Below, in pieces: positions 8,061 through 23,805 of a stretch of 36,309 nucleotides of DNA (its first letter is position 1; each line of letters begins with the position of its first letter). The DNA is taken from positions 1 through 36,309 of the IMG/VR virus record IMGVR_UViG_3300041409_000113. The stretch is one strand, 5' to 3'. Origin of the DNA: a virus. Below the pieces are notes generated by a model. It worked only from the letters and a program-made list of their open reading frames with translations, searched no databases and was not told where the DNA came from. The translations under genes and the position numbers were made by a program.

Positions 8061-8338
8061 CCCCCACCCGGCCTTGGCGACCTCCCACCCTCGCCAGCGG
8101 CAACCCCGTCACCTCCATCACCGAAAGGCAGGCCGACGTCCTCGCGGGCATCTGCCACGGCCATTCCAACAGCGAGATCGGGTCCCGGCTCCGCATCACC
8201 GAGGACACCGTCAAGTCTCACGTGAAGGCAATTCTGCGGGCTCTGGCCGCCCGCGATCGGGCGAACGCCGCAGCCCTCGCGTCATCGGGTCAGATCACCG
8301 TCCACGTCCGGGACACCAGTGCATGGAGGGCCGCGTGA
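8057..8338 (+). CDS. LuxR-type HTH regulator
   Basis: 93 residues that are essentially one GerE/LuxR-type DNA-binding domain. ITERQADVLAGICHGHSNSEI, GSRLRITEDTVKSHV and KAILRALAARDRANA follow the four-helix consensus. There is no receiver or ligand domain. It sits between a methyltransferase and a WhiB homologue, a small regulatory cluster. Confidence 0.85.
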   Translation: MTPTRPWRPPTLASGNPVTSITERQADVLAGICHGHSNSEIGSRLRITEDTVKSHVKAILRALAARDRANAAALASSGQITVHVRDTSAWRAA

Positions 8339-8652
8339 CGATCATCTCGCTGTTGTTGGTCGATGACACCGTGCACTGCCGGAAGCCCAACGTGGATCCG
8401 GAGGTGTTCTTTCCTGCCAAAGGCGCTAATGCGTCCACGGTCGCGGAGGCGAAGCGACTGTGCAACGGGTGGCCCACATCGTCCCCGTGTCCGCTTCGTG
8501 ACGCGTGCCGCGAGTACGGGGTGAGGAATCAGGTCCACGGCATCTGGGGTGGCTGGGCGGACGACGAGCGTAAGGCGGCACGGAAGCTTCGGCGCATTGT
8601 TCCGGCGCCATTGTCGACGGGCGCTGCGTACCCGGTTAGGACCGCGTCGTGA
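8335..8652 (+). CDS. WhiB-family iron-sulfur regulator
   Basis: 105 residues from GTG 8335. Cysteines at 15, 43, 52 and 58 and the GIWGG turn (69-73) followed by a basic helix identify a WhiB-like protein, an actinobacteria-specific [4Fe-4S] transcription factor that binds the primary sigma factor. The second and third cysteines are eight residues apart (C43-x8-C52) rather than the usual CxxC, with NGWPTSSP between them. Cluster binding would therefore be altered, or use the variant loop seen in some phage Wbl proteins. Phage WhiB proteins can interfere with host WhiB-controlled septation and gene expression. Confidence 0.85.
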   Translation: MTIISLLLVDDTVHCRKPNVDPEVFFPAKGANASTVAEAKRLCNGWPTSSPCPLRDACREYGVRNQVHGIWGGWADDERKAARKLRRIVPAPLSTGAAYPVRTAS

Positions 8653-16622: not shown

Positions 16623-17159
16623 ATGGCTCGCGGAGGCGCTAGGAACCGCTCTGGGCCTGCTCCTGACCCGTCCTCTGGCCGGTCGGATGCTCGCGGCTAC
16701 TCGCTCCAGGCTCTCCCTGCCCAGGGTTACGACGGACCCGTGCCGGAATTCCCCTTGCCGCGCCGGTCGGTCTTCTACACGACCTTCGAGGACAAGCGCC
16801 CCGTGCGAGTGTTCGACAAGGACGCCACCGAAATGGTGGCCGACCGCGAGCTCGAGCTATGGGCCTGGGCGTGGAGCACTCCCCAGGCTGCGGCTTGGTC
16901 GATGCCCTCGGAGCGCTGGCGCTGGTACACGGTCGGCATGTGGGTCCGCACTGCTGTGATCTGCGAGTCGTCGGACGCTACGGCGGCGGACAAGAACTCG
17001 CTCCACCGGTTCGCCGATCAGATCGGTATGACAACTGCCGGCCTCGCTGAGATGGGCTGGAGGGTGGCGGTGGACGAGTTGGCTACCCGTGCAGCCGCAC
17101 CGGCTCCTGAGCCCGCTCAGCCCCGTCAGCGGCGCCTGCGTGTGGCTGATGCACAGTGA
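16623..17159 (+). CDS. terS: Terminase small subunit
   Basis: 178 residues from ATG 16623 (GTG 16614 and ATG 16617 are alternatives; AGGTAGG at 16608-16614 best fits 16623). The N-terminal ARGGARNRSGPAPDP and the later LPRRSVFYTTFE, ELELWAWAWSTPQAAAW pattern are characteristic of actinophage small terminases. The central region is helical and the C-terminus is Pro/Arg-rich. It recognises the packaging site and recruits TerL. Confidence 0.8.
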   Translation: MARGGARNRSGPAPDPSSGRSDARGYSLQALPAQGYDGPVPEFPLPRRSVFYTTFEDKRPVRVFDKDATEMVADRELELWAWAWSTPQAAAWSMPSERWRWYTVGMWVRTAVICESSDATAADKNSLHRFADQIGMTTAGLAEMGWRVAVDELATRAAAPAPEPAQPRQRRLRVADAQ

Positions 17160-18225
17160 CTCGGTCGGCAAGGTCGACTTCCCGACCTTGGGTGACCTTC
17201 TAGACGCCTGGACCGAGCAGCACTGTCGTGTGCCGGACGGCTTCTCTCGAGGTGCGCCGTTCCGTAAGTACGACTGGCAGTTCTGGGTGACTGCAAATCA
17301 CTACCGCATCCGTGAGGACGCGAAGTGGATCCCGGAGCGCCCACTGCTGAACCAGGCGTTCACCTACCGCCGCTCACTGGTGGTCGGTCCGCAGAAGTCC
17401 GGCAAGGGCCCTGATGCGGCGACGGTCACTGCGGCCGAGGCTGTCGGTCCGACCATCTTCGGTGGCTGGGCGAAGGCAGGAGAGGTCTACGACTGTCAGC
17501 GCGACGGTGGCTGCCCGTGCGGGTGGACGTTCGACTACGAGTCGGGCGAGCCGAAGGGCATCCGTCAGCCGTCGCCGCTGATCCAGTTGACGGCGACGTC
17601 GCAGGAGCAGGTCGACAACGTGTACCGGCCGCTGGTGGCGATGATCCACCTGGGCCCGCTCAAGCACACGCTAAAGCCTCGCGAGAACTTCATCCGGATC
17701 GTCGGCAACAGTGACGACCCGGACATGGACCGCATCGACGCGGTCACGTCGTCGGCGCTGTCCCGCCTCGGTAACCCGATCAGCTTCGCATTGCAAGACG
17801 AGTCGGGCACCTACACGACGTCGAACAAGATGCGGAAGGTCGCTGAGACTCAGCGCCGCGGTGCGGCCGGCATGGGTGGCCGGACGATGGAGCACACGAA
17901 CCCGTGGGATCCGTCGGAGAACAGTGTCGCTCAGGCGACGTTCGAGGCGCAGACCGACGACGTCTTCAAGTTCTATCGGGTGCCGCCACCGAAGCTGCGG
18001 TTCATGGACAAGCGGGAGCGCCGCAAGATCCTCCAGTTCGTCTATGCCGGCTCCGATCACGTGAACGTCGACAGCATCGAGGCCGAGTGCTTCGAGCTGA
18101 TGCAGAAGGACCCGGCGCAGGCTGAGCGGTTCTTCGGTGGCCGCGTCGTCCAGGGCCACGGGAGCTGGCTGCCGGAGGGACTCTGGGAAGGCGCGTGGGC
18201 TCGTGCACTGGCTGCCGTCTCCTGA
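17149..18225 (+). CDS. terL: Terminase large subunit, ATPase part
   Basis: 358 residues from ATG 17149, overlapping terS by 11 bases. Walker A is GPQKSGKG (80-87), with a strong hydrophobic strand before it; Walker B is ISFALQDE (211-218). A Cys-rich insert (DCQRDGGCPCGW, 115-126) sits between them. The frame ends at TGA 18223-18225, just where the RNase H-like nuclease domain should begin. That domain is found directly downstream in the frame one base later. Either TerL is naturally split into two chains, or a single-base change or programmed +1 shift separates them. Confidence 0.88.
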   Translation: MHSDSVGKVDFPTLGDLLDAWTEQHCRVPDGFSRGAPFRKYDWQFWVTANHYRIREDAKWIPERPLLNQAFTYRRSLVVGPQKSGKGPDAATVTAAEAVGPTIFGGWAKAGEVYDCQRDGGCPCGWTFDYESGEPKGIRQPSPLIQLTATSQEQVDNVYRPLVAMIHLGPLKHTLKPRENFIRIVGNSDDPDMDRIDAVTSSALSRLGNPISFALQDESGTYTTSNKMRKVAETQRRGAAGMGGRTMEHTNPWDPSENSVAQATFEAQTDDVFKFYRVPPPKLRFMDKRERRKILQFVYAGSDHVNVDSIEAECFELMQKDPAQAERFFGGRVVQGHGSWLPEGLWEGAWARALAAVS

Positions 18226-18838
18226 GCCCGGCACGAGCGTCTGTGGCGGCTTCGACGGGTCAGAGAACGACGACTGGACCGCGATCCGCCTAGAGACGGC
18301 CACTGGCTTTCAGTTCACGCCACGCTGGCGGGCGACGGACGAGCCGATGGTGTGGAATCCCGCGCAGCACGGGAACCGGATCCCACGCCTCCAGGTGCAC
18401 GACGCCTGGGCTGAGCTCGCGATCACCTACAAGCTCGAGCGGATCTACTGCGACCCCGGGTTCAACGACCCGCACGACCCCACGTCGTGGATCTCGGAGA
18501 TCGAGATGTGGGACCGCGTGCACGGCCCGGAGACGTTCATTCCGTGGCAGATGGGCGGCCAGACCCGCACGCGCGCCGTCCACGCCGCCCTGGTCCGCTT
18601 CGAGGCTGATCTACGTAGTGGTGCTCTCACGCACGACGGCTGCCCGATCACGGCGGCCCACATCGGAAACGCCCGCAAGGTCCCGAAGCCCGGTGACCGC
18701 TTCCTTCTCGGCAAGCCGTCGCAGCACCAGAAGATCGACGCCGCAGTCACTTCCGCCCTATGCCACGAGGCCGCCGCAGATGCGCGCACCGCCGGCTGGG
18801 GCGCCCCGAAACCTTCCCGACGAATGGTGGTGCGCTAG
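18203..18838 (+). CDS. terL: Terminase large subunit, nuclease part
   Basis: 211 residues if read from GTG 18203, in the +1 frame relative to the ATPase and overlapping it by 23 bases. Nuclease acids are visible in CGGFDGSENDDW (first Asp), IYCDPGFND (second) and KIDAAVTSALCHEA (third), matching the RNase H-fold terminase nuclease. GGGAAGG (18185-18191) is a weak, distant ribosome site. The similarity continues upstream of the GTG for only a few residues, so the domain boundary coincides with the frame change. Confidence 0.8.
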   Translation: MHWLPSPEPGTSVCGGFDGSENDDWTAIRLETATGFQFTPRWRATDEPMVWNPAQHGNRIPRLQVHDAWAELAITYKLERIYCDPGFNDPHDPTSWISEIEMWDRVHGPETFIPWQMGGQTRTRAVHAALVRFEADLRSGALTHDGCPITAAHIGNARKVPKPGDRFLLGKPSQHQKIDAAVTSALCHEAAADARTAGWGAPKPSRRMVVR

Positions 18839-21709: not shown

Positions 21710-21760
21710 GCCCCCCGGGACCGCAACGGACCCGGATTTCCCGCAACGGGAGTGCACTAC

Positions 21761-22300
21761 ATGTCTGAGCCAGTCCACACCTCCGAGACGCCCGCAACGG
21801 GAGTCACGGTTACCGCACCGGCAACGGTCACGATCCCCACCGACCCGCCTCCTGCGGATCCCCCTGCCGAACCGAAGCCGACCGAAACGGTCGACTACTG
21901 GAAGCAGATGTCCCGGAAGAACGAGGAGCGTGCTGCGGCCAACGCCAAAGCCGCCGAGCGTCTCAAGGAGATCGAGGACCGCGACCTCTCTGACCTGGAG
22001 AGGGAGCGGCGCGACCGCGAGGAACTCGCAGCGGAGAACACCCGGCTCAAGAGCGAGTCCGCCCGCAACCGGGTGGCGCTTGCCAAGGGCCTGCCACTGG
22101 AGATCGCGGAGACCCTCAACGGCGCGAACGAGGTGGAGTTGGCGGCTCACGCGGACCGGCTCATCGCATGGCGGGGCAACGTCCCGCCGACCACACCCCG
22201 ACCGGATCCCGGTCAGGGTCCGCGACCGTCGACACCCGAAGCCGAACAGCAGGCCGAATACCTGAAGTTCTTTCCGGACGAAGCGGCCAAGCAGCGCTAG
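21761..22300 (+). CDS. Capsid scaffolding protein
   Basis: 179 residues from ATG 21761, with GGGAG from the upstream repeat as ribosome site. A Pro/Thr-rich, disordered N-terminus (residues 1-45) precedes a charged coiled coil with LKEIEDRDLSDLERERRDR (about 68-86) and a helical region. This is the composition typical of phage scaffolding proteins placed just before decoration and capsid genes. It should guide procapsid assembly and be lost afterwards. Confidence 0.85.
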   Translation: MSEPVHTSETPATGVTVTAPATVTIPTDPPPADPPAEPKPTETVDYWKQMSRKNEERAAANAKAAERLKEIEDRDLSDLERERRDREELAAENTRLKSESARNRVALAKGLPLEIAETLNGANEVELAAHADRLIAWRGNVPPTTPRPDPGQGPRPSTPEAEQQAEYLKFFPDEAAKQR

Positions 22301-22310
22301 TGCGCTCCAC

Positions 22311-22342
22311 CGGACCCGCAACGGGTCCGTTCCCGCAACGGG
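22311..22342 (+). terminator. Tandem hairpins after the scaffold gene
   Basis: CGGACCCG-CAA-CGGGTCCG (22311-22329) is a perfect 8-bp stem with a 3-base loop, followed at once by a second hairpin from the CCCGCAACGGG copy at 22332-22342. There is no T-run. It may stabilise or attenuate mRNA between scaffold and capsid genes, which are needed in very different amounts. Confidence 0.45.
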
Positions 22343-22413
22343 AGAAACCGCAATGCCACAGATCACCCCCGCACGCCCTTGTCACGATCCGCTACTAGGA
22401 GAGAGGCCAACCA

Positions 22414-22806
22414 ATGGCCGAGTACCTGCCCATTTACAAGCCCGGTCAGAGCCTGACCCTCAAGGCCTCTGCCGCGATCACCGGCGGCCAGCTGGTGGCC
22501 GTCTCCGGGTCGGGAACGGTGGCCCCCGCGGGCGCTGCTGTCGCGAACTGGATCGGCGTCGCAGCGTTCGACGCTGCGACCAACGACAACGTCACGATCC
22601 ACTGCGACGGAGTGCAGTCGGTGACCGCCTCCGGGACGGTCACGGCCGGCGATCTGGTGATCTCGGCCGCCGCTGGTGCGGTCTCGACTGCCGCTGCGGT
22701 GACGACGCCGACCGCGGGCGACGTGAACACCACCCGTCAGATCGTCGGCGTGGCTCTCACAACCGCGACCACCGGCAACAAGGTGCGCATCAAGTTCACC
22801 CGCTGA
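22414..22806 (+). CDS. Head decoration protein
   Basis: 130 residues from ATG 22414 with GGAGAGAGG upstream. Small beta-rich protein with repeated Gly/Ala/Thr strands (GGQLVAVSGSGTVAPAGAAV, TVTAGDLVISAAAGAV), fitting the capsid-stabilising DUF2190-like decoration family that precedes the major capsid gene. It would trimerise on the capsid surface. Confidence 0.75.
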   Translation: MAEYLPIYKPGQSLTLKASAAITGGQLVAVSGSGTVAPAGAAVANWIGVAAFDAATNDNVTIHCDGVQSVTASGTVTAGDLVISAAAGAVSTAAAVTTPTAGDVNTTRQIVGVALTTATTGNKVRIKFTR

Positions 22807-22861
22807 CCCGAGCGGTTCTTCTTTCCCCTTCGTAGGAGATGGCGTGATCGCCTCTCCCCAA

Positions 22862-22877
22862 GATCATTGAGGTGATC
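22862..22877 (+). promoter_or_regulatory. Hairpin presenting the capsid Shine-Dalgarno
   Basis: GATCA (22862-22866) and TGATC (22873-22877) can pair with TTGAGG in the loop. GAGGTGATC (22869-22877) is nearly a full complement of the 16S rRNA 3' end and lies 4 bases before the capsid's ATC. A short ORF (GTG 22844 to TGA 22868-22870) ends exactly on this site, which could couple its translation to the capsid gene. Confidence 0.5.
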
Positions 22878-22881
22878 AGCC

Positions 22882-23805
22882 ATCGCTACCTTCCCCCCGG
22901 CTCCGGCGACTCTGTCGGACCCCAACGTCACCGCTTCACGGTTCCTGCAGAACCCCAACTTCGTCGCCCGCCGACTGCAGACCCTCGGCGACCTCCGTTA
23001 CATCGGCACGAGTCTGCTGACGGGTCGTCAGGAGACCTCCGGCGGTGCTGTCGGCTACGAGCAGGTGGAGGGCGTCTTCGCTGACGCTGCCCCCGAGATC
23101 GTCGCCCCCGGCGCCGAGTACACCCTGTCGGCCATCTCGGACGGTCCCGCCGGGCTCGCTCGGGTCGCCAAGTGGGGTAAGGACACCGAGGTCACCGACG
23201 AGGCGATCAAGCATCGGAACATGGACCCGGTCAACAAGGGCCTGCTGAAGCTGGTCAACTCTGCTGGTCTGGTCATCGACCAGGCCGTCGTCTCGGTCAT
23301 CGCTTCGGCAATCACCGCCACAGGCGCTGCGGCTGCACTGTGGACGGCGGCGACGCCGACGATTCTGCGGGACATCCTCAAGGCGAAGGCGGCCGTTCGG
23401 GCGCTGAACCTCGGCTACGAGCCGAACGCCCTGCTGGTCGACGACACCACGTGGGCCTACATGGCTTCGGACACAGTCATCTCCGCAGCGATGGCCCGAG
23501 AGAACGCCAACAACCCGGTCTACACGGGCCGGTTCGACATGATCGCTGGTCTCCAGATCATGCCGACCCCGGCCGCGAACCTGCCCGGTGGCGTCGGCAC
23601 CAACGCCTGGGTGCTGGACACCAATCAGCTGGGCTTCATCGCCACCGAGGACCTCGGCGGCGGCTACCAGCAGGCCGGCGAGCTCGTGCAGTCGAAGGTC
23701 ATGCGCGAGGACAAGACGGACTCGTGGCGTCTGCGGGCCCGTGCGAACTTCGTCCCCGTCGTCACCGACCCGGGGGCTGGCTTCCGCATCTCTGGCGTCG
23801 CCTGA
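22882..23805 (+). CDS. Major capsid protein, apparent ATC start
   Basis: 307 residues if initiated at ATC 22882. The frame has a stop at 22873-22875, and no ATG, GTG or TTG until GTG 23065, which would delete 61 conserved-looking residues. The expected N-terminus of this HK97-fold family reads (M)ATFPPAP, and here the first codon is ATC with a near-perfect Shine-Dalgarno in front. Later segments include GAEYTLSAISDGPAGLARVA, KWGKDTEVTDEAIK and the C-terminal SWRLRARANFVPVV. Either a genuine near-cognate start or a G-to-C change or sequencing error at 22884. Confidence 0.85.
   Translation: MATFPPAPATLSDPNVTASRFLQNPNFVARRLQTLGDLRYIGTSLLTGRQETSGGAVGYEQVEGVFADAAPEIVAPGAEYTLSAISDGPAGLARVAKWGKDTEVTDEAIKHRNMDPVNKGLLKLVNSAGLVIDQAVVSVIASAITATGAAAALWTAATPTILRDILKAKAAVRALNLGYEPNALLVDDTTWAYMASDTVISAAMARENANNPVYTGRFDMIAGLQIMPTPAANLPGGVGTNAWVLDTNQLGFIATEDLGGGYQQAGELVQSKVMREDKTDSWRLRARANFVPVVTDPGAGFRISGVA

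Follow-up and report, generated by a model that had tools for sequence, protein, structure and literature searches.

The window analysed here is a 36,309-nt viral contig from IMG/VR (IMGVR_UViG_3300041409_000113). Its plus strand carries at 22882..23805 a gene of 307 codons that begins with ATC, ends with a TGA stop at 23803-23805 and follows a head decoration/scaffold-like gene (22414..22806, plus strand; phrog_673). The 307-codon frame matched phrog_1650 with an E value of 2e-78, in an alignment that starts at residue 4 and spans positions 3-298 of the 300 in the profile, and the Pfam family Phage_capsid_4 (PF25209) with an E value of 7e-22. Structure comparison used an AF2 model with a pLDDT of 80.8, built from a 59-member family alignment from which rows from the phage collection were left out; the model matched the capsids of HK97 and of Haloferax tailed virus 1 (E values of 1e-11 to 1e-14). 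A first model from 17 close sequences was poor (pLDDT 40.8) and was set aside. No sequence relative was found in the PDB, and a BLASTN near search among phage records gave no match. With both the whole-protein match and the fold criteria met, the product is, as judged from profile matches and the predicted structure, an HK97-type major capsid protein (PHROG 1650).

The capsid operon contains other start-associated hairpins, which are small, have a CAA loop and occur in tandem at window positions 21716-21751 and 22307-22344, with counterparts in related contigs (L004 at 1867 and 2430-2458, L005 at 1959 and L023 at 1464). Their sequences are GGACCCG-CAA-CGGGTCC and TCCCG-CAA-CGGGA and they end in an SD-like GGGAG, placed about 8-9 bases ahead of two ATG codons, one that opens the scaffold gene and one that opens a short ORF preceding the decoration gene. 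For the scaffold ORF (21752-21764 region) the listed GTG at 21752 overlaps the SD, and the GGGAG and its spacing favour an ATG at about 21762. A long out-of-frame ORF (22353-22835) lies over the decoration gene and ends at the TAG of a TAGGAG motif upstream of the capsid gene, within the 5' arm of the long hairpin described below; it is probably a shadow frame, and its end is similar in most of the contigs with an ATC. Elsewhere in the window the large terminase (17089-18838) is read as two overlapping frames, 17089-18225 and 18137-18838, and in two relatives the second part lies within one 529-residue frame; a split gene and a frameshift are both possible for the window. A phage-encoded WhiB-like transcription factor is found at 8074-8649 (phrog_472, E value 3e-14).

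At the 5' end of the capsid gene the frame is closed by an in-frame TGA (22873..22875), 9 bases upstream of an ATC (22882..22884, plus strand) that occupies the place of the start codon. A Shine-Dalgarno (SD) sequence, GAGGTGATC (22869..22877, plus strand), is complementary over 9 nt to the 3' end of 16S rRNA and is separated from the ATC by the 4-base spacer AGCC (22878-22881). The codons that follow are GCT ACC TTC CCC CCG, which open the protein ATFPPAP, and the predicted N-terminal peptide read from the ATC is ATFPPAPATLSDPNVTASR. The first in-frame ATG, GTG or TTG after the ATC is GTG 23065, codon 62. The initial annotation had described the TGA, the ATC, the SD and this GTG, and what it said of the sequence was correct throughout when the sequence was re-read and translated. 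With a duplex energy of -16.4 kcal/mol the SD is the strongest among 27 starts tested in the window, a set of main ORF starts that we chose without a curated annotation. The sequence GAGGTGAT occurs only once in the window, at this SD.

An IMG/VR search with the protein, followed by alignments, placed ATC at the capsid start column in 10 distinct contigs, namely the window, L003, L004, L005, L023, L006, L009, L010, L011 and L013. The nine others come, by contig name, from eight metagenome samples, were independently assembled and encode capsids 75-88% identical to that of the window. ATG stands at the same column in sister phages (L007/L024, L025, L026, L027, L008/L028, L029, L030, L015/L040 and L099, the last a prophage in Aeromicrobium) with the same spacing from the SD as in the window, and the remaining family members read ATG and rarely GTG or TTG. 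The alignment with related phages that the initial annotation had proposed as a check returned a conserved ATC in ten contigs and ATG in their sisters. A protein tree built without the start codon requires three changes to explain ATC; a single ATC clade is not rejected (p-AU 0.18). The ATC contigs appear to be viruses of soil-type actinobacteria, with host evidence only from actinobacterial relatives, and the sample amounts to ten metagenome contigs of one clade. The TGA at -9 is shared by the window, L003, L004, L005 and L023, where no canonical start is possible. The other five (L006, L009, L010, L011 and L013) have at -9 an in-frame GTG that sits within the SD; SD energies there are -1.5 to -4.0 kcal/mol for this GTG versus -13.2 to -13.4 kcal/mol for the AUC.

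Codons 2-61 carry the signature of translated sequence, seen as an excess of changes at the third position. Among the five nearest contigs the differences per site at positions 1, 2 and 3 were 0.10, 0.09 and 0.36 in codons 2-61 and 0.08, 0.05 and 0.26 in codons 62-140. Residues L46, R49 and G55 do not vary across 59 family members with identities down to 33%. In the AF2 model residues 14-60 supply two main helices (14-23, 25-37) and two strands (48-51, 56-60), which correspond to the N-arm and the opening strands of the HK97-type fold and would be lost with a start at 23065. The first downstream canonical codons of the ten ATC contigs are codons 62, 11, 114, 41, 41, 32, 50, 26, 82 and 44, a scatter over codons 11-114 that leaves no other start common to all ten. 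When all window frames were compared with four related ATC contigs the capsid alone showed conservation extending well upstream of the first canonical codon, and no other ATC start was seen in the window by this comparison. The AUC at 22882 is thus very probably the capsid start codon, although initiation there is inferred, without protein or ribosome-profiling data. This had been the preferred reading of the initial annotation, and the conserved ATC, the coding constraint and the SD support it short of an experimental demonstration.

The start region is predicted to be part of a larger RNA structure. The mRNA segment 22832-22889 folds as a 20-bp hairpin with a 5' arm GUAG-GA-GAUGGC-G-UGAUCGCCUC (22832..22854), a loop that varies in sequence and length between aligned contigs (22855..22868) and a 3' arm (22869..22889) that contains the SD, the spacer, the AUC, a G and the CUAC of codons 2-3, as delimited by folding and a covariance model (all on the plus strand). 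The initial annotation had seen the start and its SD correctly but missed this hairpin context, as well as the competing hairpin described below. Compared with shuffled sequences the long hairpin had z scores of -4.92 in the window, -3.10 in L003, -3.58 in L004, -4.92 in L005 and -6.17 in L023; those of the remaining contigs were -2.66 (L006), -4.59 (L009), -2.40 (L010), -0.95 (L011) and -1.40 (L013), and the same fold test on the ATG sisters gave about -0.3 to -0.6. Across the five nearest phages no substitution in the 16-bp core breaks a pair, one of the changes being a double one from U-A to C-G, and the C of the ATC pairs with a conserved G. A covariance model built from four of these sequences, R1, recovered the one left out, L004, at 4e-21; every pair in this match is standard, among them the U-A that has become C-G. 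It also scored L009, L011, L010 and L006 at 26-33 bits, while L013 was not significant. Of 100 alignment cells 99% are paired, versus 19-59% with the partner slid, and in a simulation under our own substitution model the chance of six arm substitutions all keeping pairs was 0.0016. A column-shuffle test of covariation was not significant (90/500) and has little power with five related rows and one double change. An AUG put in place of the AUC in silico weakens the fold by about 3 kcal/mol, which indicates that the start codon belongs to the helix. The complementary strand folds 5-13 kcal/mol less stably, G-U pairs being lost, and this favours an RNA element over a DNA dyad. Model R1 did not find the element in the ATG sisters, a pattern search of the viral collection turned up no further contig that carries it, and Rfam gave no match at the gathering cut-off, with a local search returning only a chance-level hit.

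A second, local hairpin, GGAGA(U)GGCG-UGAU-CGCCUCUCC (22835..22857, plus strand), uses part of the same 5' arm and would leave the SD free, and the two folds are mutually exclusive. Both of its arms, GGAGAyGGC...GCCTCTCC, are kept in 10/10 ATC contigs. The GGA and UCC of this hairpin have also been conserved, even though the long form leaves them unpaired apart from one G of the GGA, which pairs with codons 2-3 in some contigs. Equilibrium folding on growing transcripts predicted that the local hairpin forms first and that the long form wins in 7/10 contigs once the SD and start have been transcribed. The exceptions are L010, L011 and L013, whose long pairing is weak and whose two folds have nearly equal energies. 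By energy alone, without kinetics, the leader meets the fold criterion of an MS2-type kinetic switch, clearly so in 7/10 contigs. As a whole explanation of these observations we regard a bistable translational switch with an AUC start as likely, though well short of established: the claim rests on comparative sequence data, and initiation at AUC, switching, IF3 dependence and timing are all inferred.

Several other explanations have to be weighed against this one. The initial annotation had offered a single-base error at 22884 as the plain alternative. Whether it arose in assembly or in sequencing, such an error would make ATG the true codon, and the window is indeed one metagenome contig whose sisters carry ATG. 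The same codon at the homologous position in nine other contigs from eight other samples refutes this idea, and the C of the ATC, which in the five nearest contigs is paired to a conserved G, also speaks against it; it is barely credible. Translation from GTG 23065, the first canonical codon in frame, is harder still to entertain. That codon is not conserved in position among the ten contigs, and the initial annotation's objection that such a start would cut off 61 residues of the family pattern was borne out by the constraint and the family-invariant residues found in codons 2-61, which rule this start out. The capsid frame could also be reached from upstream, by a frameshift, by termination-reinitiation after a leader ORF or, in the five contigs that have it, from the in-frame GTG at -9. 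A GTG or ATG does follow TAGGAG (or CAGGAG) in the 5' arm of all ten contigs, and the leader ends right before the AUC in five. In the window this leader is an 8-codon GTG ORF (22844..22870, plus strand) which, being present in only some of the ten and differing in its ends, is probably incidental. Leader frames, lengths and stops vary between contigs, and coupling or frameshifting from the leader ORF was rejected on the lack of conservation of its start, frame and stop; the GTG at -9 has no SD of its own, and the TGA closes the frame in the window and four others. We consider an upstream entry improbable.

Other readings accept the pairing or the start and dispute their function. The AUC might start the capsid while the hairpins have no switching role, serving stability or processing instead or merely reflecting base composition. 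Such an account gains from the weak long pairing at 3/10 loci and from the G+C-rich window, where 99 of the 7250 sixty-base segments match or exceed this stability. It has more difficulty with arms that are conserved around a variable loop and whose pairing survives six substitutions, with z scores down to -6.2 for a pairing that spans exactly the SD and start, and with the conservation of GGA and UCC in the local hairpin despite their lack of pairing in the long form. We see it as unlikely, yet as the most serious of the competitors. The inverted repeat could instead be a DNA site, an operator or a recombination site, that overlaps the start by chance, since 16-bp arms with a 12-14 bp spacer resemble a dyad. 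The G-U pairs that stabilise only the mRNA strand, the exact overlap with SD and start, the single copy and the absence of the element from the ATG sisters make this very improbable.

Under the preferred reading, the bistable switch, the capsid would be translated from AUC 22882 by ribosomes recruited through the unusually long SD, which may partly make up for the weakness of the codon; fMet-tRNA would presumably initiate there. The local hairpin, first to form on the nascent transcript, would open a time window for ribosomes, and the long hairpin would later bury the SD and AUC unless a factor holds the 5' arm or something removes it. IF3 excludes weak third-base pairs at the start codon (PMC10158994) and restrains non-canonical starts (PMC5472188), so that the AUC, with a disfavoured C at its third position, could act as a second restraint. 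As a trigger, kinetic release on new transcripts in the style of the MS2 maturation leader best fits the conserved local hairpin. The 5' arm might instead be lost in the manner of T4, but a scan of 22300-23000 detected no sigma-70-like promoter that would remove it, other promoter types being outside the scan. No tRNA genes, and thus no phage initiator tRNA for AUC, were found in the window, the capsid loci or longer contigs, and no phage-coded IF3 was detected by PF00707. Against the whole reading, a hidden SD and a weak start are unexpected for the most abundant virion protein.

Known systems share parts of this arrangement. The infC gene starts with ATT in E. coli and ATC in Streptomyces, and Streptomyces sigR starts with GTC (PMC5472188). 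As in these genes the capsid has a start other than ATG, GTG or TTG behind an SD, here assigned by sequence and conservation with initiation inferred, and such starts are systematically misannotated; sigR and Streptomyces infC also share its actinobacterial setting. It differs in being a phage structural gene, where those are low-level host regulatory genes, and in having its start codon inside a hairpin, with IF3 control inferred. In the leader of the MS2 maturation gene a transient short hairpin on nascent RNA permits translation and the equilibrium fold hides the SD (PMC6071253). The capsid leader likewise has two exclusive folds, the local one first and the long one hiding the SD; MS2, however, is an RNA phage and the gene a minor 5' one, whereas the capsid starts with AUC and its folding order comes from energies only, without kinetics. 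In T4 the ribosome-binding sites of several genes, I-TevI, soc and e among them, are concealed in hairpins until the use of late promoters removes the 5' arm (PMC2988022). T4 is also a dsDNA phage with the SD in a stem that has an upstream 5' arm, but the capsid leader differs in the lack of a promoter found in the arm, in its major capsid target, in its competing local hairpin and in its AUC start. The start-associated sequences of Cluster K mycobacteriophages (SAS/ESAS; PMC3203893) resemble it as inverted repeats that include AGGAG at actinophage gene start regions. They occur in many copies at several genes, a criterion that the capsid element does not meet: it differs in sequence and is single, with one significant plus-strand R1 match per contig. 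In the open-access literature searched we found no phage capsid gene reported to start at AUC, and this absence counts as weak evidence only.

Gene finders usually accept only ATG, GTG and TTG as starts. In half of the ATC phages such programs therefore have no way of calling the full-length capsid from its true start, and the protein would look N-truncated. To our knowledge almost no gene uses an AUC start codon, and the AUC, AUU and GUC starts that we know of belong to regulatory proteins made at low level under IF3 restraint. An AUC conserved at the head of a major structural gene raises the questions of how the phage reaches high output with a start that IF3 disfavours and of whether infection relaxes start-codon fidelity. 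It is tempting to speculate that a clade of actinobacterial phages makes its top virion protein from an AUC paired within a bistable mRNA switch, and that codon choice, SD and fold have co-evolved as one control of shell production; this remains tentative, and we would lean slightly against asserting it. The two hairpins offer a small RNA device that is open to testing, and they may explain the timing of capsid output.
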